Source: Enterobacter kobei
GTDB taxonomy: Bacteria; Pseudomonadota; Gammaproteobacteria; Enterobacterales; Enterobacteriaceae
Length of the DNA stretch: 64,000 nt
Assembly (NCBI RefSeq): GCF_001729765.1
Contig: NZ_CP017181.1
Span: 1,426,001-1,490,000, forward strand
Direction: 5' to 3'
Shown: piece by piece, positions 4,708-16,316 of the stretch
Numbering within the stretch: position 1 is the first letter of the stretch
How the letters are laid out: each line of letters begins with the position of its first letter
The notes under the pieces: generated by a model
Database searches by the model: none
What the model was told of the DNA's origin: nothing
What the model saw: only the letters and a program-made list of their open reading frames with translations
Program-made: the position numbers and the translations under genes

Positions 4708-4753
4708 CCCTCTCCCTGTGGGAGAGGGTCAGGGTGAGGGCATCAGGCCGCAC
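4708..4753. repeat. Intergenic palindromic repeat (CCCTCTCCC type), copy 1
   Basis: CCCTCTCCC-TGT-GGGAGAGGG forms a near-perfect hairpin. A conserved tail GGGTGAGGGCATCAGGCCGCAC follows in the same order in the other copies (the tail is quoted here in parts: GGGTGAGGGCATC then AGGCCGCAC). Further copies lie at 16317-16368, 34451-34500 and 38087-38132. It is distinct from REP and ERIC. Confidence 0.75.
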
Positions 4754-7131
4754 TACACCACCCAATCACACCTTTCTTCACCATTCACCAGCAGCTTACG
4801 TTTTTCCCCCGTCGGTAACGACACCTTCAGCGCGTTCCATGCCGGACGATAATCACCGCGTGCACCGATGTTCAGGTTGACGGTTGCCCCGTCGCACACC
4901 ATTTCCCACGCCACCCACAGCGCATTGCCGTTCTGGTAGCCCCAGGACTCGCCGTCATCTTCAAACAGCAGGCCGGACGTGGTGCCGACGCCTTTCACCG
5001 GGAACAGCTTCAGCTCGCGGGTATCGTCTTTTTCGGCGCTCACGTGACGGATGCGCTCGCTGAGCGGCAGAGCGGCACCGGCGCGCACCAGCAGCGGCAG
5101 TTTCTCCAGCGGCGCGTCGAGGACGATCGCTTGCCCGCCAGCGAACCATTCGTGAGTGTAGAAATCGTACCAGCCGGTTTCGTTATCCGGCAGCCAGACG
5201 TGGCGTTTACGCTGCCCGGCCTCGACGATGCTGGCGACAAGGAGGTCGCGGCCCAGCAGGAAGTCATCGCACTCTTCGAAGGTCCGCGCGTCGTGCTCGT
5301 GGTCGAGGAAGGTCGGGCGCAGCATCGGTTCGTCGTCGGCGTGCGCCTGCCAGAGCAGGGTGTAGAGATAGGGCAGCAGACGGTAGCGCAGCTCAATCGC
5401 ACCGCGAATAGCGGGGGTGACGCCCGGGTACATCCACGGCTCGTTGACCGTGTGGTCATCGTTCCACGAGTGAATGGTAAAGCGCGGATGCATCACGCCG
5501 TTTTGCACCCAGCGCACGAACAGTTCGGCGTCTGGCTTGTCGCCGGAGAAACCGCCGACGTCGTGGCCGACGTTGAACAGCCCGGAGAGGCTCATGCCCA
5601 GCCCCATGCGGATGTTATAGCGCAGGGTATCCCAGTGAGTGCGGTTATCGCCGCTCCAGGTCTGGACGTAGCGCTGCATCCCGGCGCAGCCGGAGCGGGA
5701 AATGAGATACGGACGTTTTTCCGGCGCGAAACGCTGCTGCGCTTCCAGCGAGGCGCGCATCATCAGCAGCGGCATCACCGGGCGAATGTGTTTGATGGCA
5801 ATCTCTTTGCCGAAGCCAAAACAGCGTGCTTCCCCGTCCCATACTTCATATTCGTTGTTATCGTTCCAGGTCGAGTCTATCCCCATCTCCAGCAGCTGCG
5901 TGGTCACGCCGTTCTGCCACCACTGCACCGTCTGCGGGTTGGTGAAATCGAGATGCGATCCTTCGTCATCCCAGAAGCTGGAACGTTCAGGTACATCAGT
6001 TTCTGAGTCGCGAATGAACAGGCCACGTTCCGCCACTTCGTTATAGCGGGGATGATCCTGCAGCAGACACGGCTTGATGTTGGCGGCCAGCTTTAACCCG
6101 GCATCGTGGAACGCCTGGCTCATCACCTTCGGCTGCGGCACTTTGTCATGGTTCCAGTTAAAGACGTAGCGCTTGCCGTTAATGGAGGTATAGCCGGAGG
6201 AGAGCTGGAACGAGTCGCATGGAATCGCGTGTTCTTCACACAGGCGGATAAAGTTCATCAGCTGGTTTTGCGCGTCCGGCGCGTCGGTATAGTGCATGGT
6301 CGAGCCGCTGTAGCCCAGGCTCCATTTCGGTCCGAACAGCGTTTTCCCGGTCAGGCGCACGAAGGCTTTGGTGACGTCCAGTACGCGCTTGCCGGTAAAG
6401 ATGTAGTAATCGATATCGCCCGCTTCCGCCTGCCAGCGCCGATAGGCGGTGTGGTAGTTGTCGATCTCGTTGCCCAGATCCAGCCAGCAGCTGCTCAGGT
6501 TATCGTAGAACAGGCCGTAGCTCACGTCGTCGCGACGGGTGAGGGTGAACGGAATGTGCTTGTACAGCGGGTCGGTGCTGGCGGCGTTGTAGCCCATCGC
6601 ATCCAGGTTGCGCATCTCGTAGCGTTTACCGTTGCGCTGTAGATCGCCCGCTTTCTCGCCCAGCCCGTAGAAACGTTCGTCCTTGCGACGGCTCAGATAG
6701 TGCGCCACGCCGTCACCGTGCGCGTTCAGCAGGTACGCACTGGTCGGACGGTCATTGACCAGCGGCTGCCACTCGCCTGCGTCATTGCGGTAGTGCCACT
6801 CCAGCCACAGGGGCTGGTGGACGGTCACCCGAAGCTGCTCCGTCGCCACCGTCACGGTATTTTCCTGCCGCGTCAGCGTCCAGGCCGGGCAGGTAAAGCC
6901 ACTGACATCGTCACGACGGCGACCTTCCCACGGCACGTCTTGCGCCGGGGCGATGCTCCAGGTGCGGTCCAGCGCCAGTTCACCTTTGCGTTTGATCAGC
7001 ACGCGGAACAGGTTCTCTTCCAGCACATACAGGCACAGGCGGTGCTGGTTATCCACCAGCAGTTCCAGATGGTTTGCCGACTGCGTATCAACGGTCCAGT
7101 TTTTCAGGGTTTTCATATGCGATACATCCAC
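4753..7131 (-). CDS. Glycoside hydrolase family 31 (alpha-glucosidase/alpha-xylosidase type)
   Basis: The protein has about 792 residues and is predicted to be cytoplasmic, with no signal peptide. It has the GH31 layout: an N-terminal beta-sandwich (about 1-250), a TIM barrel (about 265-620) with nucleophile Asp424 in TWNDNNE and proposed acid/base Asp495 in WSGDN, then C-terminal beta domains. The block FNVGHDVGGFSG is typical of the family. It retains an alpha-linked glycoside-cleaving role; the exact substrate is not evident. The first codon lies 2 bp after the stop of the upstream MFS gene, so the two form an operon. An alternative start is Met6 (7116). E. coli K-12 has no gene here, so the pair is an accessory sugar-use module. 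Confidence 0.9.
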   Translation of the reverse strand: MDVSHMKTLKNWTVDTQSANHLELLVDNQHRLCLYVLEENLFRVLIKRKGELALDRTWSIAPAQDVPWEGRRRDDVSGFTCPAWTLTRQENTVTVATEQLRVTVHQPLWLEWHYRNDAGEWQPLVNDRPTSAYLLNAHGDGVAHYLSRRKDERFYGLGEKAGDLQRNGKRYEMRNLDAMGYNAASTDPLYKHIPFTLTRRDDVSYGLFYDNLSSCWLDLGNEIDNYHTAYRRWQAEAGDIDYYIFTGKRVLDVTKAFVRLTGKTLFGPKWSLGYSGSTMHYTDAPDAQNQLMNFIRLCEEHAIPCDSFQLSSGYTSINGKRYVFNWNHDKVPQPKVMSQAFHDAGLKLAANIKPCLLQDHPRYNEVAERGLFIRDSETDVPERSSFWDDEGSHLDFTNPQTVQWWQNGVTTQLLEMGIDSTWNDNNEYEVWDGEARCFGFGKEIAIKHIRPVMPLLMMRASLEAQQRFAPEKRPYLISRSGCAGMQRYVQTWSGDNRTHWDTLRYNIRMGLGMSLSGLFNVGHDVGGFSGDKPDAELFVRWVQNGVMHPRFTIHSWNDDHTVNEPWMYPGVTPAIRGAIELRYRLLPYLYTLLWQAHADDEPMLRPTFLDHEHDARTFEECDDFLLGRDLLVASIVEAGQRKRHVWLPDNETGWYDFYTHEWFAGGQAIVLDAPLEKLPLLVRAGAALPLSERIRHVSAEKDDTRELKLFPVKGVGTTSGLLFEDDGESWGYQNGNALWVAWEMVCDGATVNLNIGARGDYRPAWNALKVSLPTGEKRKLLVNGEERCDWVV

Positions 7132-7133
7132 TA

Positions 7134-8435
7134 TCAGGCGCGCTTGGCGCGACGTTCAGCAATAAATGCTACCAGGAAGACAGCGCCAATCAGGTCAAAG
7201 AAGCCCATGGCAATAAAGAGCGGGTTAAAGCCGATTTTGTCGGCGGTCACACCGATTAACAGCGAGAACAGGAAGCTGGCGATCCACGCCGCCGAGCCGC
7301 GCATGCCGTTGACGGTCGCCATCTGGCCCTTATCAAACGACTCCACGACCAGGGCGCTGAGCATGCAGGAGATAATCTGGTGCCCAAAGCCGCCGATGGA
7401 GATCAGCACGATGGTGATATACGGATCGCGGGTAATGGCGACAATGCCCAGAGAAATCATCAGAAACGCGCCGGTGACGGAGCTGGCGACGACGGAGTTA
7501 ACGCGGGAGCAGCCGAACAGGCGGGTGTACAATCGCGTCAGGTAGCCACTTGCCACGCTGCCGAGGTCAGCAGCGAGGAATGGCAGCCAGGCGAACATCG
7601 CAATCTGCTTCAGGTCCATGTCGTGTTCTTTGGCGAGATACAGCGGCACCCAGAAGCTCAACACCGCCCAGGCCGGTTCCGCCATAAAGGCCGGGATGGC
7701 GATACCGTAGAAACGTTTGTTTTTCGAGACGGTTTTCAGTGCGGTCAGGAACGGCAGTTTGACCGCAGGCGGTTCGTTATCCTGCTTGATAAATGCCAGC
7801 TCATCCTTGCTCAGGTTCGGGTGCTGCTCCGGGTTGTGGTAGAACGCCCACCAGAGGATCACCCACAGCAGCGCCAGCACGCCGGTAAACATAAACGCAC
7901 CCTGCCAGCCAAACGACGCGTGAGCAAAGTAGATAATTGGCGGGGCCAGCATCGCACCGATGGAGAAGCCCACGCCCGCCCAACCGGCGGCAACAGGACG
8001 TTCCGATTTCGGGAACCATTCACCGATGGTTTTGGCGTTCGCCGGGGTTGCGGCGGCCTCAGAGGCCCCCATAAAGAAGCGCAGGATAGCCAGGTGCAGC
8101 CAGCTTCCGGCCCCCGCGTGGAAGATACACATCAGCGCCCAGATCCCGGCGCAGACCATAAAGCCAATCTTCAGGCCGATGACGTCAATCAGCCAGCCGC
8201 ACAGGGGCTGGAAAATGGTGTAGGCGATCTGGAATGCGCCGACGATCCAGGAGTATTGCTCGGTGGTGATCCCGAGGCTCTCTTTCAGTTCCGGCGCGAG
8301 GATCCCCAATGAGTTTCGGGTTATGTAGTTAACGGTGACGCCCAGTAAAAACAGCACCAGCACGTACCAGCGCAGGTTCTTGATGACGCGACGGGTTTTG
8401 CTTCTCGCAACGGTGTTATTGATGTCCTGACTCAT
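7134..8435 (-). CDS. MFS transporter, anion:cation symporter type (hexuronate/glycoside uptake)
   Basis: The protein has about 433 residues and twelve predicted membrane segments. The N-terminal part (NYITRNSLGILAPELKESLGIT) and the block MGASEAAATPANAKTIGEWFP resemble ExuT/GudP-like sugar-acid transporters. ATG 8435 is preferred over GTG 8447 because GGAGAG stands at proper distance. The gene precedes the GH31 glycosidase in an operon, so it probably imports the glycoside or sugar acid that the enzyme hydrolyses. A LacI regulator is divergent from it. The transported compound cannot be named from sequence. Confidence 0.88.
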   Translation of the reverse strand: MSQDINNTVARSKTRRVIKNLRWYVLVLFLLGVTVNYITRNSLGILAPELKESLGITTEQYSWIVGAFQIAYTIFQPLCGWLIDVIGLKIGFMVCAGIWALMCIFHAGAGSWLHLAILRFFMGASEAAATPANAKTIGEWFPKSERPVAAGWAGVGFSIGAMLAPPIIYFAHASFGWQGAFMFTGVLALLWVILWWAFYHNPEQHPNLSKDELAFIKQDNEPPAVKLPFLTALKTVSKNKRFYGIAIPAFMAEPAWAVLSFWVPLYLAKEHDMDLKQIAMFAWLPFLAADLGSVASGYLTRLYTRLFGCSRVNSVVASSVTGAFLMISLGIVAITRDPYITIVLISIGGFGHQIISCMLSALVVESFDKGQMATVNGMRGSAAWIASFLFSLLIGVTADKIGFNPLFIAMGFFDLIGAVFLVAFIAERRAKRA

Positions 8436-8705
8436 TTTACTCTCCACAAGACGGACGCTAAGGGGACGGAGGTTCAGGTGTCACACAGATTGTTATGCCT
8501 TTGATTTCTATCCGTTTAGAATGCTTAAGTTGCTATACAACTAGTATGGAAGTTGTGTGACAAGTTCACCTTAAGGGAGAAAATGAGTGGGCAATAGTGG
8601 ATTTTGTGCAAAGTTTCTCATAACGGGTGCAAACCCTCTGGCATGATGGTCGTTATGCCCGTTATTACCTGACAGATACGCTATGAAAATTTTTTCATTT
8701 CGCAA
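8436..8705. promoter_or_regulatory. Divergent control region of the GH31 operon, with candidate operator
   Basis: The 270-bp region between the MFS transporter (minus) and the LacI regulator (plus) is AT-rich. An inverted repeat AGTTG-CTATA-CAACT lies at 8528-8542, and a related half-site AGTTG occurs at 8551-8555. It is a reasonable but unproven operator for the adjacent regulator. Confidence 0.4.
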
Positions 8706-9797
8706 ATGGAGCCAGATCACAAAATGGACAAAAGGCTAAAAATCACCGAAATCGCCGCCCGTACGCAACTCTCTATCAGTACCGTTTCCCGCGTGCTGGC
8801 GGGCAAAGCGAACACCAGCGAAAAAGCGCGTGCAAAGGTGCTGGCGTGCGCACGGGAGCTGGGGGTGATGGATGGCATGGCGGCGGGGCGTCTGCTGCTT
8901 AACAGCCTGGTGGTTTTTGCTCCCCAGCGAGCCTTTGACGAGCGGTCCGACATCTTTTACTACCGCGTGATCCAGAGCGTCAGCAAAGGGCTGGCTTCGC
9001 ACGAGGTTCGGCTACGCTACTGTGCGCTGGAGGAGAACGACAGCGACGCGCAGCTTTTTCTGGCACGCATGAACGAGCCGGATACCCAGGCAGCCATTCT
9101 GCTCGGTATTGACGATCCGCATATCCACGATCTGGCGGTGGACGTGGGGAAACCCTGCATGCTGATTAACTGCCGTGACCGCCACATGCGTCTGCCTGCC
9201 GTAGCACCGGACCATCGCGCCATTGGCGAGCGGGCGGCGGAATACCTGTTCGAAATGGGACACCGCGACGTGATGAACGTGCTGTGCCTGCGCCGTTACA
9301 CCATGGAGCTGCGCCTGGCAGGGATCCGCGACGCGTGGCACGCCCATAACCTGACGTTCAGCGACAAGCGCGATCTGCTGGTGGTGCCGAGCTTTAGCGC
9401 ACGCGAAACGGAACAGCTGGTTAGCGAGTGGCTTAACCAGCAGAAGGGAAAAGATCTGCCCACCGCGTTTTTGGTCGGCGGCGACTTTATGGCGGCGGGC
9501 ACCATCAGCGCTTTGCAGAAACAGGGATTGCGGGTACCGCAGGACGTTTCCGTCATGAGCATCGACGGCTTTAATCTGGCGGCGATTCAGGATGTGCCCC
9601 TGACGGCAGTGCATGTCCCGCGTGATGAACTGGGAACGGAAGCGGTACATATGCTCCAGCAGCGGCTGATGCGCCCGGACGCCCCGGTGGGAACCTTGCT
9701 GCTGAACGGCACGTTGACCGTGCGGGAATCGGTACGGCGGATACGTCAGGGGAAACGACGCACCGCCGTTGAGCGGGAAGGGCTGTACGACAGTTAA
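8706..9797 (+). CDS. LacI-family transcriptional regulator
   Basis: The protein has 363 residues. The N-terminal HTH is typical of the LacI family: KITEIAARTQLSISTVSRVLAG, quoted in parts as KITEIAARTQ and LSISTVSRVLAG. The hinge helix is replaced by a divergent segment (GVMDGMAAGRLLLNS). A periplasmic-binding-protein-like effector domain follows, with VSVMSIDGFNLA near the C-terminus. The start could also be ATG 8724, because neither start has a strong ribosome binding site. It is divergent from the MFS-GH31 operon and is likely its local regulator. Its stop codon overlaps the convergent ybiU stop by three bases. Confidence 0.9.
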   Translation: MEPDHKMDKRLKITEIAARTQLSISTVSRVLAGKANTSEKARAKVLACARELGVMDGMAAGRLLLNSLVVFAPQRAFDERSDIFYYRVIQSVSKGLASHEVRLRYCALEENDSDAQLFLARMNEPDTQAAILLGIDDPHIHDLAVDVGKPCMLINCRDRHMRLPAVAPDHRAIGERAAEYLFEMGHRDVMNVLCLRRYTMELRLAGIRDAWHAHNLTFSDKRDLLVVPSFSARETEQLVSEWLNQQKGKDLPTAFLVGGDFMAAGTISALQKQGLRVPQDVSVMSIDGFNLAAIQDVPLTAVHVPRDELGTEAVHMLQQRLMRPDAPVGTLLLNGTLTVRESVRRIRQGKRRTAVEREGLYDS

Positions 9798-11050
9798 ACC
9801 ATGCCCAGCGCGCGCTTGCCGTGGATGTTGAGATCGTTCACGGTAAAGCGGTCCTGCCAGCTTTTTTCATAATCTTCACGCGGGAAATCTCCCGGTGACG
9901 CACCGGTTTCCAGCGCTTCCTTCACCTTTTTCGCGTAGGCGAGGTTCTTCTCGCACATTGGCGCGGCAGGGATGTACATCACGTTGCCCCAGCCCTGCTG
10001 ATTTTCCACCGGAGCGACGGAGTGGATCACATCGCAGTGCCACCACACGGAATCCCCTGCGTCCAGCGCCGGTATGCTGGTTAATGCTTCGATGAGCAGC
10101 GGGTGCCATTTTTCCGAAATCGGCAGCACGCGGCCCGGCGCGACGCCGCAGAGTTCATCTTCCGGCACGTCGTCCAGCAGCGGACGCAGCAGAATGTAGG
10201 CCATCGCTTCCGGGATGGGCACCACGTGCAGCAGTCCCTGGCCCGGGATCATGTCCGACAGCGCCGTCCAGCCCTGGAAAGTACGGAACACCGAACACTT
10301 GGTGGTGTTATCCACGGTGTACTCTTCCACTTCGGTGCGGTGCGCGGCGTTCCATGGATCGTACTTATCAACATTGCCGTCAAACACGCGGGCAAACACC
10401 TGCTGATAGGCAGGCAGCAGCCAGCGCTCCAGCGCGCCGGAATCGGTATGCGCGCCCAGCCCTTTAGAGGTGGTGCCCGGTGGGCGGTGGCGAATACGAT
10501 CCGGATAAATCACGCTGACATCCGGGTCGAACCACTGCTTGCCGTTGCTCTCGAATGTCCATAAACGGTTCAGGAACGACTGCACCTGCGCCATCTCTTC
10601 GCTCTGACGCGCCTGCATTTGCGCCTGCGACCAGTAGATCGGGTAAATCTCCGGACGAGAGGCGGTTAAGGTGCCGAAGAAGTTATCGCCCGGCCCTTTG
10701 TACACCTCGTCAAAGTTATTGAGATCGAGATAGTCGAGCATCGACTGATCCCACGCCAGCGCCTGTTCGCGCGGAAAATGACCTTTGATCACCGCGCAGC
10801 CCCGACGCTTAACCGCCTCGCGCTGTTCAGCGGTGATTGTGCCGTTTTTCACATCCGCGAACGGGATCGTCGGCCAGACGGGTTGGCCTTTATTCTTGAG
10901 GGCGTTGATCTCTGCCACGCGGGTGGCAATGTTGTCGCTGAGCTTGTCGAACACCGCCTGAACATCACCGATCTGGGCGCGTAGCTCGCGCTTCATCTGG
11001 CGAATTGCCGCTTTGTGGTCCGCTGGCAAAGTTTCACTGGTAAAGGTCAT
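9794..11050 (-). CDS. ybiU: DUF1479 family protein YbiU (putative Fe(II)/2-oxoglutarate dioxygenase-like)
   Basis: The protein has 418 residues, like E. coli YbiU. The family (DUF1479) is thought to have a double-stranded beta-helix fold related to phytanoyl-CoA-type oxygenases. His-x-Asp in LGAHTDSGALERW and a distal histidine in WWHCDVIHSVAPV fit a 2-His-1-Asp iron site. The physiological substrate is not known to me. It is transcribed alone. A 16-bp palindrome shared with ybiV and ybiY lies 13 bp upstream of the start codon, overlapping the ribosome-binding region, which predicts tight repression. Confidence 0.9.
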   Translation of the reverse strand: MTFTSETLPADHKAAIRQMKRELRAQIGDVQAVFDKLSDNIATRVAEINALKNKGQPVWPTIPFADVKNGTITAEQREAVKRRGCAVIKGHFPREQALAWDQSMLDYLDLNNFDEVYKGPGDNFFGTLTASRPEIYPIYWSQAQMQARQSEEMAQVQSFLNRLWTFESNGKQWFDPDVSVIYPDRIRHRPPGTTSKGLGAHTDSGALERWLLPAYQQVFARVFDGNVDKYDPWNAAHRTEVEEYTVDNTTKCSVFRTFQGWTALSDMIPGQGLLHVVPIPEAMAYILLRPLLDDVPEDELCGVAPGRVLPISEKWHPLLIEALTSIPALDAGDSVWWHCDVIHSVAPVENQQGWGNVMYIPAAPMCEKNLAYAKKVKEALETGASPGDFPREDYEKSWQDRFTVNDLNIHGKRALGMV

Positions 11051-11062
11051 AACTGCCTCGCA

Positions 11063-11078
11063 TCTTTCATTCGAAAGT
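11063..11078. promoter_or_regulatory. Shared palindromic operator, site A (ybiU)
   Basis: TCTTTCATTCGAAAGT matches the reverse complement of the site in front of ybiY at 15 of 16 bases. The arms are CTTTC and GAAAG around ATTC. It sits 13 bp before the ybiU start codon. See the other sites at 12081 and 15555. Confidence 0.65.
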
Positions 11079-11156
11079 AAAAATATCTACAAATGATACT
11101 TTAAGTTAAAAATAAGTTAATGCAAGTTTAAAAACTTGACGCAAGCCACAGGACGG

Positions 11157-11189
11157 AAAAAGAGTGAGAGGCCGGAGCGGGGCTCCGGC
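11157..11189 (-). terminator. Probable terminator downstream of ybiV
   Basis: The stem GCCGGAGC / GCTCCGGC lies at 11171-11189. On the minus strand it is followed, after a short spacer, by TTTTT. The gap between hairpin and T-run is longer than ideal. Confidence 0.5.
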
Positions 11190-11199
11190 GGGAGAGAGA

Positions 11200-12015
11200 T
11201 TAGGCGTCGAACGGGGAATGGTTATCGAGCACGGCCTGAATGACGTTCAGCGCGCCCTGATGGTTGTTGTCGTCGGTGCTGTAGCGGGCGATCTGTTTGA
11301 TGCTTTCTGCCGCGTTGTTCATCGCAAATGAGTATTTCACCAGCTTCAGCATCTCCGCGTCATTGCCGCTGTCGCCAATTGCCACGCACTGCTGCGGGGA
11401 GAGCTCCCAGCGCTTCAGCAGGCGGCTGATGCCGTTGGCTTTATGCAGGCCAGGAATGATCAAGTCCACAAACCCAAAGCCGCTGGTGACCGGTTTCATA
11501 ATGCCGTCGAGAGAAACATGCAGCGCGTCGATCAGGTTCGGGATATCGCTGTCGGGCAGGTTCAGTGAGAACTTGAACAGCACATCGTCAATCTCGTGAT
11601 AATCGCTGACGCGCGTTAAGCGATGGTAGTGCTTAGACATCAGCGCCACAAATTCGTCCGGGGCTTTATCGCTGACGTAAGCGCTCTGCAGCCCGCAGGC
11701 CACGAAGTTCAGCGCGTTATCTTTCAGCAGTTCGCCAATGACGATCTGCGACTCATGGCGAGTCAGTTCGCCGTGGAAAACGTGTTCCCCGTGATCGAAC
11801 ACCAGCGCGCCGTTTTCCGCCACGAAGGAGATTCGATCTTTAAGCTCAGGGAAGAAAGAGATGAGCTGATAATACTGATTGCCGCTGGCGACAACGAATT
11901 CAATGCCGCGGGCGTTAAGCTGCTCAAACTGTGCCTGGAAGCGGTCACGATCGTACTGCTTGGCATCATCAAGGAAAGTTCCGTCCATATCGGTGACGAT
12001 AACTTTTACGGTCAT
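11200..12015 (-). CDS. ybiV: HAD sugar phosphatase YbiV (Cof-type)
   Basis: The protein has 271 residues from ATG 12015. This start has AGGAG at good spacing and matches the E. coli protein; a longer frame reaches 12048. It is a HAD hydrolase of the Cof subfamily that dephosphorylates sugar phosphates in the cytoplasm. Motif I is DMDGTFLDD (nucleophile Asp). Motif II is VVASGNQ, and motif IV is [10 protein letters not shown]. The paralogue ybjI lies at 38137. Its place among ybiU, ybiW-ybiY and fsaA, together with a shared upstream palindrome, links it to the metabolism of an unusual sugar phosphate. Confidence 0.95.
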
Positions 12016-12080
12016 ACTGTGCTCCTGGGTCACTGCGTTTTGAAACATTCTAATAACAAGGTGACGGGGAGCACAAATTT

Positions 12081-12096
12081 AATTTCGAATGAAAGT
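12081..12096. promoter_or_regulatory. Shared palindromic operator, site B (ybiV)
   Basis: AATTTCGAATGAAAGT differs from the ybiY site at one base. It lies 66 bp upstream of the ybiV start codon, where a promoter would be expected. Confidence 0.65.
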
Positions 12097-12102
12097 CAGA
12101 AA

Positions 12103-12177
12103 GCCGGGTGGCGGCTTCGCCTTACCCGGCCTGCGGGGGAGACAATGTAGGCCCGGTAAGCGCAGCGCCACCGGGCG
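12103..12177. repeat. REP pair (BIME)
   Basis: Two REP palindromes in opposite orientation occupy the gap between ybiV and ybiW: GCCGGGTGGCGGCTTCGCC at 12103 and a Z-type partner ending in CGCCACCGGGC at 12177. Confidence 0.85.
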
Positions 12178-12182
12178 TTTTT

Positions 12183-14615
12183 TTACAGCGTATGCTCGGT
12201 ACGCGCAATAATATCGTCCTGTGCATCCGGCGACAGGGCGGTGAAGAACGCCGAGTAGCCCGCCACGCGTACCACTAAATCTCGGTACTGGTCAGGGTGT
12301 TTCTTCGCTTCCAGCAGCGTTTCGCGCGAGACGATGTTGTACTGAATATGCCAGCCTTTATGCACCTCGAAGAAAGTGCGCAGCAGCACCATCAGCTTCT
12401 GGCGATCGCTGTCGTTTTCCAGCGTCGACGGGTTCAGCTTCTGGTTCAGCAGCACGCCGCCCAGAATCGCCTCGGTAGGGAGTTTACCCACGGAGCCGAT
12501 GACCGCCGTCGGGCCGAGGTGGTCGGTACCGGACGCCGGGCTTGCCCCTTCCGCCAGCGGGGTATGCGCCTTACGTCCGTCCGGAGTCGCCATCGTTGCC
12601 GCACCAAACGGCACGTTTGCGGAGATGGAGGAGGTGCCCGCGTAGTAGTTACCGCCAATCGGACCACGACCATAGCGCGGGTTGTGGTACTGCTTCAGCT
12701 CTTCAATGTAGGTCTGGTAAGCACGCGTCAGCAGCATATCCACGCTGTCGTCGTCGTTACCGTACTTTGGCGCGCCGTTGATCAGACGCTGACGCAGCTG
12801 CTCGTGGGTCAGCCCGTCGAAATCATCCGCCAGCGCCGCCGCCAGCTGCTGTTGACCGATGAAGCCCTGTTCAAACACCAGCTTCTTCACCGCCGCCAGA
12901 CTGTTGCCGAGGTTGGCGATACCCACCTGCAGGCCGGAAACCCAGTCATACTTCGCGCCGCCCTGCTTGATGCTTTTCGCGCGTTCGATGCAGTCGTCCA
13001 CCAGCGCCGAGCAGAGAATATCGTGCACGTTCTCTTCCAGCATGGTGTCCACCACGTACTCAATTTCGATGGATTTGCGGGTGTAGTAGCGAATCTGCGT
13101 ATCCCACGCCGCCATCACCTCCTCGAAGTTATCGAAGTTACCGGCAGAGAGCGCTTTTTCCTGCGGCAGGAATACCTTACCGCTGGTGGCGTCGCGGCCG
13201 CCTTCCAGCGCGGCGAGCATCACGCGGGCAAAGTTGATAAAGCTCATGCCGGTGCAGCGATAGCCCCACTTGCCGCCCACGGCGGTTTCGATACAGCCGA
13301 TGGCCGCGTAGTCATAGGCGTCATCACGTTCAACGCCGAGCTTGATAAATTCCGGGATAACGATTTCATCGTTGTTGAACGCCGGCATCCCGAAGCCGCA
13401 GCGGATCACCTGTACGCAGGCGTCAAGGAAGTCGTTGCTCATGCCTGCGTGGTAACGCACGCTCAGGTTCGGCTGAGTGGAGCGCAGGCGACCGCAGGAT
13501 TCCAGAATCGCGTAGGAGAGCGGGTTGACCGCGTCCATTGGCTCACCGTTGACCAGCTTCTGGCCGCCGATGGTGACGTTCTGGTACAGCGGGCTACCGG
13601 CAGAGGCCTTAGAGTGCGAGCCGGAGCGGATCTTGTTCACTTCCAGCAGCTTCAGCCAGCAGCTGTGGAGCAGCTCGATAGCGTGTTCGCGGCCGAGGCT
13701 CTGGTTAAGCTCGACGTCGCGGCGGTAGTAAGGATAGAGATACTGGTCCATACGCGCGAAGGAGACGGAATGGCCGTTAGACTCAATCTGCAGGATCAGC
13801 TGAATGAAATAGCACAGCTGCAGCGCCTGCCAGAAGGTTTTTGGCGGCTCGTGGGCAATCACGTCGCAGTTTTCCGCCATTGCCAGCAGCTCGTCGCGGC
13901 GGCTTTCGCGGGTTTCCGTGGCCGCCATTTCACGTGCCAGAGCGGCAAAACGTTTGATGTGCAGGCTCACCGCGTCCAGCACGATATCGATCGCTTTCAG
14001 GAACTGGTCGCCGTGCAGATCGTCCAGCACCGTCAGGTTGATACGCGAGCGGCGCTCGGCGACTTTAGCGCGCAGGCCGTCGAGACCTTTCTCCAGCACC
14101 AGCGGGAAGTTTACCGCCAGGTGCGCGTCGCCGGAGGTCATGTTGCCTTCGGCTTTGATAATACCGGTTTCCAGCAGGCCTTTTTGCTCGTCGGTGAACA
14201 TGCCGTAGCAGCGATCCTGCACCGTCTGGCCGCGCCACCACGGGCAGATCGCATGCAGGACGCGCTTGTTCTCTTCGCTTACCGCAAAGCCCGCGCCCGG
14301 ACGGTCCGCCAGATCGTCGATCTCTTTTTCAATCCAGGAGACGGTGTATTCCGGGAAGATAGGTGCGGCGCGAACTTCGCTTGCCTGGTTACCGATAATC
14401 AGCTCGTCGTGTTTGATCCAGATGGTACGCTCAGCCAGATGATGCGCCAGCGCCAGGGCGCGACGCACCGGGATCGGCTTGTCCATGTGCTGCTGGTACA
14501 TTTCGGTGTAATGCTGCGCGCGCTCGGTACAGACCGGCGGCTTAATGATATGGACCAGCGCGGTTTTGTGCGCCTTGATGCGCTCGCTGAGGGTGTTGAG
14601 ATTTAACGTCGTCAT
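12183..14615 (-). CDS. ybiW: Glycyl-radical enzyme YbiW (PflF)
   Basis: The protein has 810 residues. It is a glycyl-radical enzyme related to glycerol/diol dehydratases and was once annotated as a pyruvate formate-lyase. The glycyl loop is RVAGYSAFF with the radical Gly786. The active-site cysteine is Cys441 in AIGCIETAVGG, with Glu443 as in the dehydratase branch (GCxE); true pyruvate formate-lyases have two adjacent cysteines here. I recall reports assigning YbiW homologues to 1,5-anhydroglucitol-6-phosphate lyase, which I cannot verify here. The activase ybiY is upstream, 4 bp away, in the same operon. The enzyme should act only without oxygen. Confidence 0.93.
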   Translation of the reverse strand: MTTLNLNTLSERIKAHKTALVHIIKPPVCTERAQHYTEMYQQHMDKPIPVRRALALAHHLAERTIWIKHDELIIGNQASEVRAAPIFPEYTVSWIEKEIDDLADRPGAGFAVSEENKRVLHAICPWWRGQTVQDRCYGMFTDEQKGLLETGIIKAEGNMTSGDAHLAVNFPLVLEKGLDGLRAKVAERRSRINLTVLDDLHGDQFLKAIDIVLDAVSLHIKRFAALAREMAATETRESRRDELLAMAENCDVIAHEPPKTFWQALQLCYFIQLILQIESNGHSVSFARMDQYLYPYYRRDVELNQSLGREHAIELLHSCWLKLLEVNKIRSGSHSKASAGSPLYQNVTIGGQKLVNGEPMDAVNPLSYAILESCGRLRSTQPNLSVRYHAGMSNDFLDACVQVIRCGFGMPAFNNDEIVIPEFIKLGVERDDAYDYAAIGCIETAVGGKWGYRCTGMSFINFARVMLAALEGGRDATSGKVFLPQEKALSAGNFDNFEEVMAAWDTQIRYYTRKSIEIEYVVDTMLEENVHDILCSALVDDCIERAKSIKQGGAKYDWVSGLQVGIANLGNSLAAVKKLVFEQGFIGQQQLAAALADDFDGLTHEQLRQRLINGAPKYGNDDDSVDMLLTRAYQTYIEELKQYHNPRYGRGPIGGNYYAGTSSISANVPFGAATMATPDGRKAHTPLAEGASPASGTDHLGPTAVIGSVGKLPTEAILGGVLLNQKLNPSTLENDSDRQKLMVLLRTFFEVHKGWHIQYNIVSRETLLEAKKHPDQYRDLVVRVAGYSAFFTALSPDAQDDIIARTEHTL

Positions 14616-14619
14616 AGGT

Positions 14620-15519
14620 TTATCCTCGTAAGGTCGCGGTTAACCCTTTCTGGCAGGCGTACTGCTGCGCGAAGTCCAGCAGGGCAGGGTTATCCAGCGG
14701 TTTGTCAGGGGCAGAGTAGGGTTGGCCAAGCAGGGTGTATTTGTTCATGCCCAGCGTGTGATACGGCAGAAAATGAATATCATCGACGCCAAGTTCATCG
14801 GCGGCGAAGTTGGTAATGGCGGTCACGGACGCTTCATCGGCATTGAACCCCTGAATCAGCGGTACGCGAATGGTGATTTTTTTCCCGGCAGCGGCAAGGC
14901 GCTTCAGGTTATCGAGGATCCGTTTGGCCGAGCCGTCCGTCCACTGTTTGAACACCTCAGGATCGACGTGTTTCAGGTCGGCGAGGAACAGATCGACGTA
15001 CGGTAATGAAGGCTCGATATAGTGCCACGGCACGTGAAGACAGGTTTCAACGGCGGTGTGGATCCCCTGTTCGTGGCTGGCTTTAAACAGCGCGTGCGCC
15101 AGCTCCGGGTTCATAAACGGCTCGCCGCCGGAAAGCGTAATACCGCCGCCGCTGCGGTCGTAAAAGGGCTTATCGCGCAGCACGGTCGCCATGATCTCGC
15201 CCACCTGCCGTTCTTCACCGCATACGGTCAGCGCCTGCGTCGGGCAGCAGTCAGTGAGGGCGTTGAGCGTCTCTTCACGCAATTTTTCACGGTGGATGAC
15301 GAGACCATTCAGCGCGCGTTCGATACAGCCAGGCGCCGCCTGCTGACACAGGTCGCAGCCGTCAAGGCACAGGCGCGCATCAAACAGCACGTCCCGGCTA
15401 CGGGAACGGCTTTCCGGGTTCTGGCACCAGCGACAGCCCAGCGAGCAGCCTTTCAGGAAAACCACGGTACGAATACCGGGGCCATCGTGGGTGGAGTAAC
15501 GCTGAATATTGAAGATCAT
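14620..15519 (-). CDS. ybiY: Glycyl-radical enzyme activating enzyme YbiY (PflE), radical SAM
   Basis: The protein has 299 residues from ATG 15519, the start with a GAGGGT-type ribosome binding site and the start of the E. coli protein; the frame remains open to 15588. The radical-SAM cluster motif CSLGCRWC sits near residue 26. An inserted ferredoxin-like region with cysteines ([20 protein letters not shown]) follows, as in activases of dehydratase-type glycyl-radical enzymes. It places the radical on Gly786 of Ybi[12 protein letters not shown] is the SAM-binding block. The operon ybiY-ybiW is preceded by an FNR-like site and by the shared palindrome. Confidence 0.93.
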
Positions 15520-15554
15520 GTTTTTACCCTCAAGTTGCATATGAAGATTAAATG

Positions 15555-15570
15555 ACTTTCGAATGAAAGT
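15555..15570. promoter_or_regulatory. Shared palindromic operator, site C (ybiY / fsaA)
   Basis: ACTTTCGAATGAAAGT is a perfect inverted repeat (ACTTTC-GAAT-GAAAGT). It lies 36 bp before the ybiY start and 77 bp before the divergent fsaA start, so one protein could control both. Single-mismatch copies lie before ybiU and ybiV. Confidence 0.7.
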
Positions 15571-15574
15571 TATC

Positions 15575-15588
15575 TTGATGCAGGTCAA
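15575..15588. promoter_or_regulatory. Candidate FNR box
   Basis: TTGAT-GCAG-GTCAA matches the FNR consensus TTGAT-N4-ATCAA at 9 of 10 bases. It stands 56 bp upstream of ybiY, as expected for anaerobic activation of an oxygen-sensitive glycyl-radical operon. CRP binding is a less likely alternative. Confidence 0.55.
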
Positions 15589-15646: not shown

Positions 15647-16316
15647 ATGGAACTTTATCTCGACACATCTGACGTTTGACGTTGCGGCAGTCAAAAAGCT
15701 GGCGCGTATCTTCCCGCTGGCGGGCGTGACCACCAACCCAAGCATTGTGGCGGCAGGTAAAACGCCGCTGGATGAGCTTCTGCCCGCGCTGCACGACGCG
15801 ATGGGCGGTAAAGGCCGTCTGTTCGCGCAGGTGATGGCGACGACCGCTGAAGGTATGGTGGAAGACGCGCGTAAGCTGCGCGCGATGATTAACGACCTGG
15901 TGGTGAAAGTGCCGGTAACTGCCGAAGGGCTGGCAGCCATCAAGATGCTGAAAGCGGAAGGCATTCCGACGCTGGGTACGGCGGTGTACGGCGCGGCCCA
16001 GGGTATGCTCTCCGCGCTGGCAGGAGCAGAGTATGTCGCGCCATACGTGAACCGCGTGGACGCGCAGGGCGGGGACGGTATCCAGACCGTGGTTGAGCTG
16101 CAACAGCTGCTGACGCTGCACGCCCCGCAATCAAAAGTGCTGGCCGCGAGCTTTAAAACCCCACGTCAGGCGCTGGACTGCCTGCTGGCAGGATGCGAGT
16201 CCATCACGCTGCCGCTGGACGTGGCGCAGCAGTTTATTACCTCTCCTGCGGTAGACGCAGCGATTGTGAAGTTTGAGCAGGACTGGCAGGGGGCGTTTGG
16301 TCGGACGTCGATCTGA
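15647..16316 (+). pseudogene. fsaA: fructose-6-phosphate aldolase FsaA, frameshifted by a 7-bp duplication
   Basis: ATG 15647, with GAGGG upstream, starts the expected [10 protein letters not shown] and then meets TGA at 15677. The following 633 bp encode the rest of FsaA in the +1 frame ([10 protein letters not shown]...[11 protein letters not shown], with the Schiff-base lysine in [10 protein letters not shown]). The break is exactly a tandem copy of TGACGTT (15670-15676 and 15677-15683). Removing one copy restores a normal 220-residue protein reading [11 protein letters not shown]. The frame can be opened from TTG 15633, but that protein would have a nonsense N-terminus without Asp6 of the active site. 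FsaA aldol-cleaves fructose 6-phosphate and 1-deoxy analogues. The gene is divergent from ybiY. Confidence 0.88.
15670..15683. repeat. 7-bp tandem duplication TGACGTT in fsaA
   Basis: Two adjacent copies of TGACGTT lie at codons 8-11 of fsaA. The duplication shifts the frame and creates an immediate TGA. Confidence 0.92.

Follow-up and report, generated by a model that had tools for sequence, protein, structure and literature searches.

Putative YciT Operators Upstream of ybiU, ybiV, ybiYW and fsaA in Enterobacter kobei and Related Bacteria

Three copies of a 16-bp sequence precede ybiU, ybiV and the divergently oriented ybiY and fsaA in the 64-kb stretch of Enterobacter kobei DNA analysed here, referred to as the window. 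It is highly probable that these sites are operators of the repressor YciT, which jointly switch ybiU, ybiV, ybiYW and fsaA, with proposed activation by FNR at ybiY/fsaA. The original prediction, made from the same DNA, placed these sugar-phosphate units under one regulator, and the tests of conservation and rarity described below agree with it. The term "undescribed regulon", however, has to be withdrawn, as a 2021 study had already reported the YciT regulon in E. coli (PMC8464067). The FNR-YciT promoter layout, an operator upstream of yjfP and a set of candidate targets in a second lineage may be new, and are modest extensions of that regulon. With 186 operator sequences, a little understood E. 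coli regulator becomes a clean comparative case, and direct tests become possible of what induces YciT and of how gut bacteria use 1,5-anhydroglucitol.

The Gene Block and Its Pathway

Four genes of the block lie on the minus strand. These are ybiU (9794..11050), which encodes a Gig2-like protein (Pfam PF07350; DUF1479 in the E. coli annotation) with 87% identity to E. coli YbiU; ybiV (11200..12015), which encodes a HAD-type sugar phosphatase of the Cof-type HAD family with 81% identity to E. coli YbiV; ybiW (12183..14615), which encodes a glycyl radical enzyme (TIGR01774, 1358 bits); and ybiY (14620..15519), which encodes the glycyl-radical enzyme activase (TIGR02494; 82% identity to E. coli). 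The fifth, fsaA (15647..16316, plus strand), encodes fructose-6-phosphate aldolase and is frame-shifted near its start. The ATG is out of frame with the remainder because of a 7-bp tandem duplication at 15670-15683, about nine codons in. This duplication is absent from the five Enterobacter relatives compared and may be either a real mutation or an assembly error.

In E. coli, YbiW is a 1,5-anhydroglucitol-6-phosphate lyase (PMC12441222), which converts its substrate to 1-deoxyfructose-6-phosphate only in the absence of oxygen (PMC12441222, section 5.1, citing Ma et al.). It is the key glycyl radical lyase of radical-mediated 1,5-anhydroglucitol-6-phosphate glycolysis, a strictly anaerobic role that is the same here. 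The available text of that account does not discuss transcriptional control.

Three Copies of a 16-bp Sequence

An exact copy of the sequence, ACTTTCGAATGAAAGT, lies between ybiY and fsaA (15555..15570, plus strand), 35 bp from the ybiY start codon. Copies with one mismatch are found upstream of ybiV (12081..12096, plus strand; 65 bp from the start codon) and of ybiU (11063..11078, minus strand; 12 bp from the start codon). These coordinates and mismatch counts are as originally reported. The description of the sequence as a perfect inverted repeat, or perfect palindrome, does not hold: only the 6-bp arms, ACTTTC and GAAAGT, are complementary, and they flank an asymmetric GAAT core that does not pair and is conserved as such.

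The three sites are not due to chance. In the 64-kb window, three matches with at most three mismatches to ACTTTCGAATGAAAGT were seen and 0.34 expected, none of 100 shuffles reached three matches, and there was no fourth match at this threshold. With equal base frequencies, 0.11 matches with at most one mismatch are expected per genome, compared to three within 4.5 kb. The whole genome (4.93 Mb) contained four matches with at most two mismatches, three of them in the block and one upstream of yjfP, and the reversed pattern, used as a control, gave two. The original statement that the window holds no other copy is correct, and the genome has a fourth one.

Conservation of the Sites Across Relatives

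To follow the sites in related species, we used 76 ybiY loci, with flanking stretches no longer than 10 kb, from one-per-species genomes, to which the window and E. coli C43 were added. The best match was sought within 250 bp upstream of each gene, and genes without a start or an upstream region in the locus were dropped. The motif was retained upstream of all three units. Upstream of ybiY, the best match had at most two mismatches in 75 of 78 regions (exact in 56) and at most four in all 78. The threshold of two mismatches was reached in 51 of 53 regions upstream of ybiU and in 40 of 56 upstream of ybiV, where all 56 had at most four. In E. coli C43, all three sites were found at the corresponding positions, and each had one or two mismatches. 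No upstream match with at most four mismatches was found for the control genes ybiW (77 regions), moeB (57) and moeA (56), and in shuffled upstream regions of seven genes (one shuffle each) the best matches all had four mismatches or more.

Positions 3-14 of the operator, including the asymmetric core, were 93-100% conserved among 186 of the 187 best ybiY, ybiV and ybiU sites, i.e., those with at most four mismatches; the one left out was the ybiU site of Rouxiella, with five. The ybiY sites of Serratia and Rouxiella had three to four mismatches. In two loci, from Salmonella diarizonae and arizonae (L067, L091), ybiV is inverted, so that its count refers to the site on the ybiU side, and no fsa was detected within the locus. 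In three Escherichia loci (L057, L063, L069), ybiU was 82-84% identical to that of C43, compared to 94-100% for the other block genes, and is likely the result of allelic replacement. The operator core in these loci is GAAC rather than GAAT.

YciT as the Probable Regulator

ChIP-exo in E. coli K-12 placed peaks of YciT, a regulator of the DeoR family, upstream of the operon ybiUVWY and of fsaA, and deletion of yciT altered the expression of ybiV, ybiY and fsaA (PMC8464067, Gao et al. 2021). In a 2025 preprint, YciT was enriched on the ybiYW promoter, which was active without oxygen (PMC12132413). Both studies place YciT at genes of the block, so the single regulon over ybiU, ybiV, ybiYW and fsaA is already known and is the YciT regulon. 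The motif in the ChIP-exo study is palindromic (PMC8464067), and this word and the positions of the sites suggest that it is the same motif as the 16-bp sequence, which is almost certainly the YciT binding site.

The genome of E. kobei encodes its own YciT, 1.1 Mb from the block, with 83% identity to E. coli YciT. It matches NCBIfam NF040887 at 513 bits (cut-off 450) and contains, both above cut-off, the DeoRC sensor domain PF00455 and an N-terminal DeoR-type HTH, PF08220. Among the candidate regulators first proposed was an unlinked protein, and the E. coli regulon (PMC8464067) identifies it as YciT. Operators precede the same genes in this genome as in E. coli, and by analogy the Enterobacter protein would behave like its E. 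coli counterpart. Compared to the E. coli K-12 regulon (PMC8464067; PMC12132413), the targets ybiUVWY and fsaA are shared, the regulator is orthologous and the three sites lie in the same promoters. For this different genus, the present analysis resolves single sites and contributes the FNR-like site, an operator before yjfP, the order of ybiYW and yciT and, in a second lineage, candidate targets of another kind. YciT may do more than control this pathway, as few of its 49 ChIP-exo sites, 23 of them in regulatory regions, belong to it (PMC8464067) and Reg-Seq found YciT at phnA (PMC7567609).

Promoter Layout of ybiYW and fsaA

FNR binds the consensus TTGATN4ATCAA and, at class II FNR-activated promoters, its site is centred around -41.5. 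An FNR-like site with one mismatch to this consensus, TTGATGCAGGTCAA, lies at 15575..15588 (plus strand), next to the operator. On the ybiY strand, TTTAAT (15547..15552, minus strand) is found 2 nt past the operator and is the putative -10 hexamer of the ybiYW promoter, with a predicted +1 near 15540. The centre of the FNR-like site is 29.5 bp from this hexamer, i.e., at about -41.5 of the predicted ybiY start, as in class II promoters. Unlike in those promoters, the predicted operator would fill the space between the FNR-like site and the -10 element.

This layout is fixed across the loci. Read on the ybiY strand, 77 of 78 loci have an FNR-like site that starts 18 nt ahead of the operator and deviates from the consensus at no more than two of its ten positions (none in 11 loci, one in 47 and two in 19), and TTTAAT or a close variant occurs 2 nt past the operator in most of the 78. 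The order of FNR-like site, operator and TTTAAT suggests that activation by FNR is blocked by YciT. We infer the following mechanism: ybiU, ybiV, ybiYW and fsaA, which serve the breakdown of 1,5-anhydroglucitol-6-phosphate, would be under one sugar-phosphate-responsive YciT switch; in the absence of oxygen, FNR would activate the ybiY and fsaA promoters from its site beside the operator, around -41.5 of ybiY; YciT, bound between the FNR site and the -10 element, would bar RNA polymerase; and a phosphorylated metabolite would release YciT. The restriction of YbiW activity to oxygen-free conditions fits the proposed anaerobic activation by FNR. This FNR-like site could act on fsaA as well, in the opposite direction, where the -10 element is less clear.

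It is less probable, but deserves mention, that YciT activates from these sites, or has a dual role, instead of being a simple repressor. The ChIP-exo study reports changed expression, and its available text gives no direction (PMC8464067). In addition, the ybiV operator lies upstream of a conserved TTGTGC..TTGTTATTA stretch, a possible promoter. The other two sites are placed as expected for blocking, as the ybiY operator is flanked by the FNR-like site and the putative -10, and the ybiU operator is 12 bp from the start codon. We consider an activating or dual role unlikely.

The preprint describes an activator of the ybiYW promoter without naming it; its motif scan named none, and FNR is not mentioned in the text available to us (PMC12132413). 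Relative to the start predicted in the preprint, YciT lies near -5 and the activator near -20. These positions match the layout found here, with its roughly 20-bp spacing between centres, only if the predicted start is about 16 bp too far upstream. Given this shift the spacings agree, and we therefore propose FNR as the activator left nameless in the preprint (PMC12132413). A promoter scan of the block was uninformative, with two promoter-like matches and 1.8 expected. The ybiY-fsaA spacer of E. coli occurs in a genomic-SELEX list of minor sigma factor sites (PMC5493296).

Linkage and Co-Occurrence of yciT with Its Putative Targets

A YciT relative (E <= 1e-40) was present in all 77 genomes, i.e., our own and the 76 that contributed loci (49/49 and 28/28, our own being among the 28); in three of them (G024, G027, G066), the matched yciT frame contains one stop codon. 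In 18 of the 76 ybiY loci, a YciT-like gene was found within the fetched flanks. In 16 of 76, it shares the strand of ybiY and begins 3.38-3.41 kb past the start of that gene, directly 3' of ybiW; the adjacency was read as ORFs in one locus (L071) and from distances in the other 15. The order in Buttiauxella, Cedecea and Serratia (12 loci) is fsa, ybiY, ybiW, yciT, osmB, yciH, pyrF. In E. coli, yciT adjoins osmB, yciH and pyrF, and ybiYW-fsa lies near moeAB instead. The most economical account is that yciT and its targets formerly made up one operon and were separated later, with ybiYW-fsa as the part that may have moved.

A survey of 148 genomes of the order detected YciT in 23 and YbiY in 12, all 12 of which have YciT. 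The motif with at most one mismatch occurred in 22 of the 148, namely in 16 of the 23 genomes with YciT compared to 6 of the 125 without (Fisher p 1.2e-11 with relatedness ignored, a value that is too small because the genomes are related). Seven of the 23 YciT genomes had no match at this threshold. Operators also precede yciT itself, in all nine genomes of a genus referred to here as g9 (2-3 mismatches) and in two further families (two genomes each; 1-4 mismatches). In Enterobacter, E. coli and most YciT genes outside those families, no operator was found within 200 bp upstream of yciT. One genome of our own family without a YbiY match (L199, 3255-5454) carries an exact operator 30 bp before a YbiU-like reading frame, 66% identical to the YbiU of the window, and yciT comes directly after this frame.

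Operators of the DeoR family can resemble each other, and our genome encodes nine proteins with a DeoRC domain, YciT included. The sites could thus belong to another DeoR-family paralogue, with YciT merely cross-binding. This is very improbable: the E. coli evidence for YciT is direct (PMC8464067, PMC12132413), yciT is linked to ybiW, and operators precede yciT in other families. No match with at most four mismatches was found upstream of the DeoR paralogues of our genome, a neutral result, as its own yciT likewise had none.

The LacI-family protein encoded at 8706 (start codon more likely at 8724), the linked candidate of the original prediction, adjoins ybiU in our genome (8724-9797) and has a homologue in at least 33 of 76 loci, a lower bound because several loci hold shorter stretches; we reject it as the regulator, with next to no probability left to it, as the ybiY operator (at most four mismatches) is present in 78 of 78, E. 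coli, Buttiauxella and Serratia loci retain the sites with no such LacI gene found in the fetched stretch, its neighbours, an MFS transporter gene and a glycosyl hydrolase family 31 (GH31) gene, are more likely its targets, and the motif tracks YciT by linkage, co-occurrence and the operators before yciT. Within the stretches covered, the LacI homologue does not accompany the operator throughout, and in E. coli ybiT adjoins ybiU in its place. The LacI, transporter and GH31 genes together adjoin the block at 4753-9797. NCBIfam matches of the LacI neighbours to named transporters and alpha-glucosidases were all below cut-off, and the inverted repeats upstream of the LacI gene contained no clear operator. 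As GH31 enzymes can make 1,5-anhydrofructose, a precursor of 1,5-anhydroglucitol (PMC12441222), a functional link of this cluster to the block is possible.

A Conserved YciT-Like Operator Upstream of yjfP

The fourth match in the genome (L004, 1501-1516) is found 60 bp upstream of the esterase gene yjfP, which adjoins ulaR. A scan of 13 other genomes recovered seven more sites ending in TTTCGAATGAAAAT, all upstream of yjfP. The gene was found in 33 of 34 genomes, and we compared 31 upstream regions, from 30 of these 33 and one E. coli, leaving out three more divergent yjfP genes. A match with at most three mismatches occurred in 26 of the 31, including E. coli, at 60-64 or 104-109 bp, and the operator was absent (five mismatches or more) in the other five. 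Across 29 of the 31 regions, with two from Serratia left out, conservation was 0.876 in the operator core compared to 0.600 in its surroundings. This conserved YciT-like operator apparently marks a new target. Our literature search found no paper with both yjfP and YciT; yjfP does not appear in the main text of the ChIP-exo paper as available (PMC8464067), and may stand in its supplementary tables.

Candidate Central-Carbon Targets in a Second Lineage

The nine genomes of genus g9 (L200-L210, L249-L288) encode YciT with 53-54% identity and have no YbiY match. Here, sites were found before zwf (9/9, at most two mismatches), transaldolase and yciT (9/9 each, at most three), transketolase (2/2 examined) and NAD-isocitrate dehydrogenase (3/3 examined). 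Matches with at most two mismatches showed no excess over the reversed control in the nine genomes (72 vs 66), and those with at most one did (15 vs 3). Among 11 of these 15 that were inspected, four were at transaldolase, two at transketolase, three at zwf and two near GGDEF genes (L205, L206). A recurrent match inside a 507-aa reading frame (L262, L263) was set aside. Conservation of the transaldolase and yciT operators proves little, as their upstream regions are conserved throughout; because of this and the missing excess at two mismatches, the case depends on how well these genes fit together as a set and on the matches with at most one mismatch. The only paper we found joining YciT and transaldolase is the ChIP-exo study (PMC8464067, as far as its text is available). 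The central-carbon genes with such sites, i.e., those for zwf, transaldolase, transketolase and NAD-isocitrate dehydrogenase, appear to be new candidate targets of YciT.

We give even chances to a wider reading, in which the sugar-phosphate sensor YciT would be old and its regulon would have been rewired. In g9 it would control itself along with zwf, transaldolase, transketolase and NAD-isocitrate dehydrogenase, and in Enterobacteriaceae the anaerobic breakdown of 1,5-anhydroglucitol-6-phosphate, together with FNR, and yjfP. In this reading, ybiYW-fsaA, once in one operon with yciT, would have moved to the moeAB-ybiU region and kept its operator. Some of the g9 sites face a second gene: those of transaldolase also face an aroF-tyrA pair (L200), and those of transketolase a ClcA-type gene (L203).
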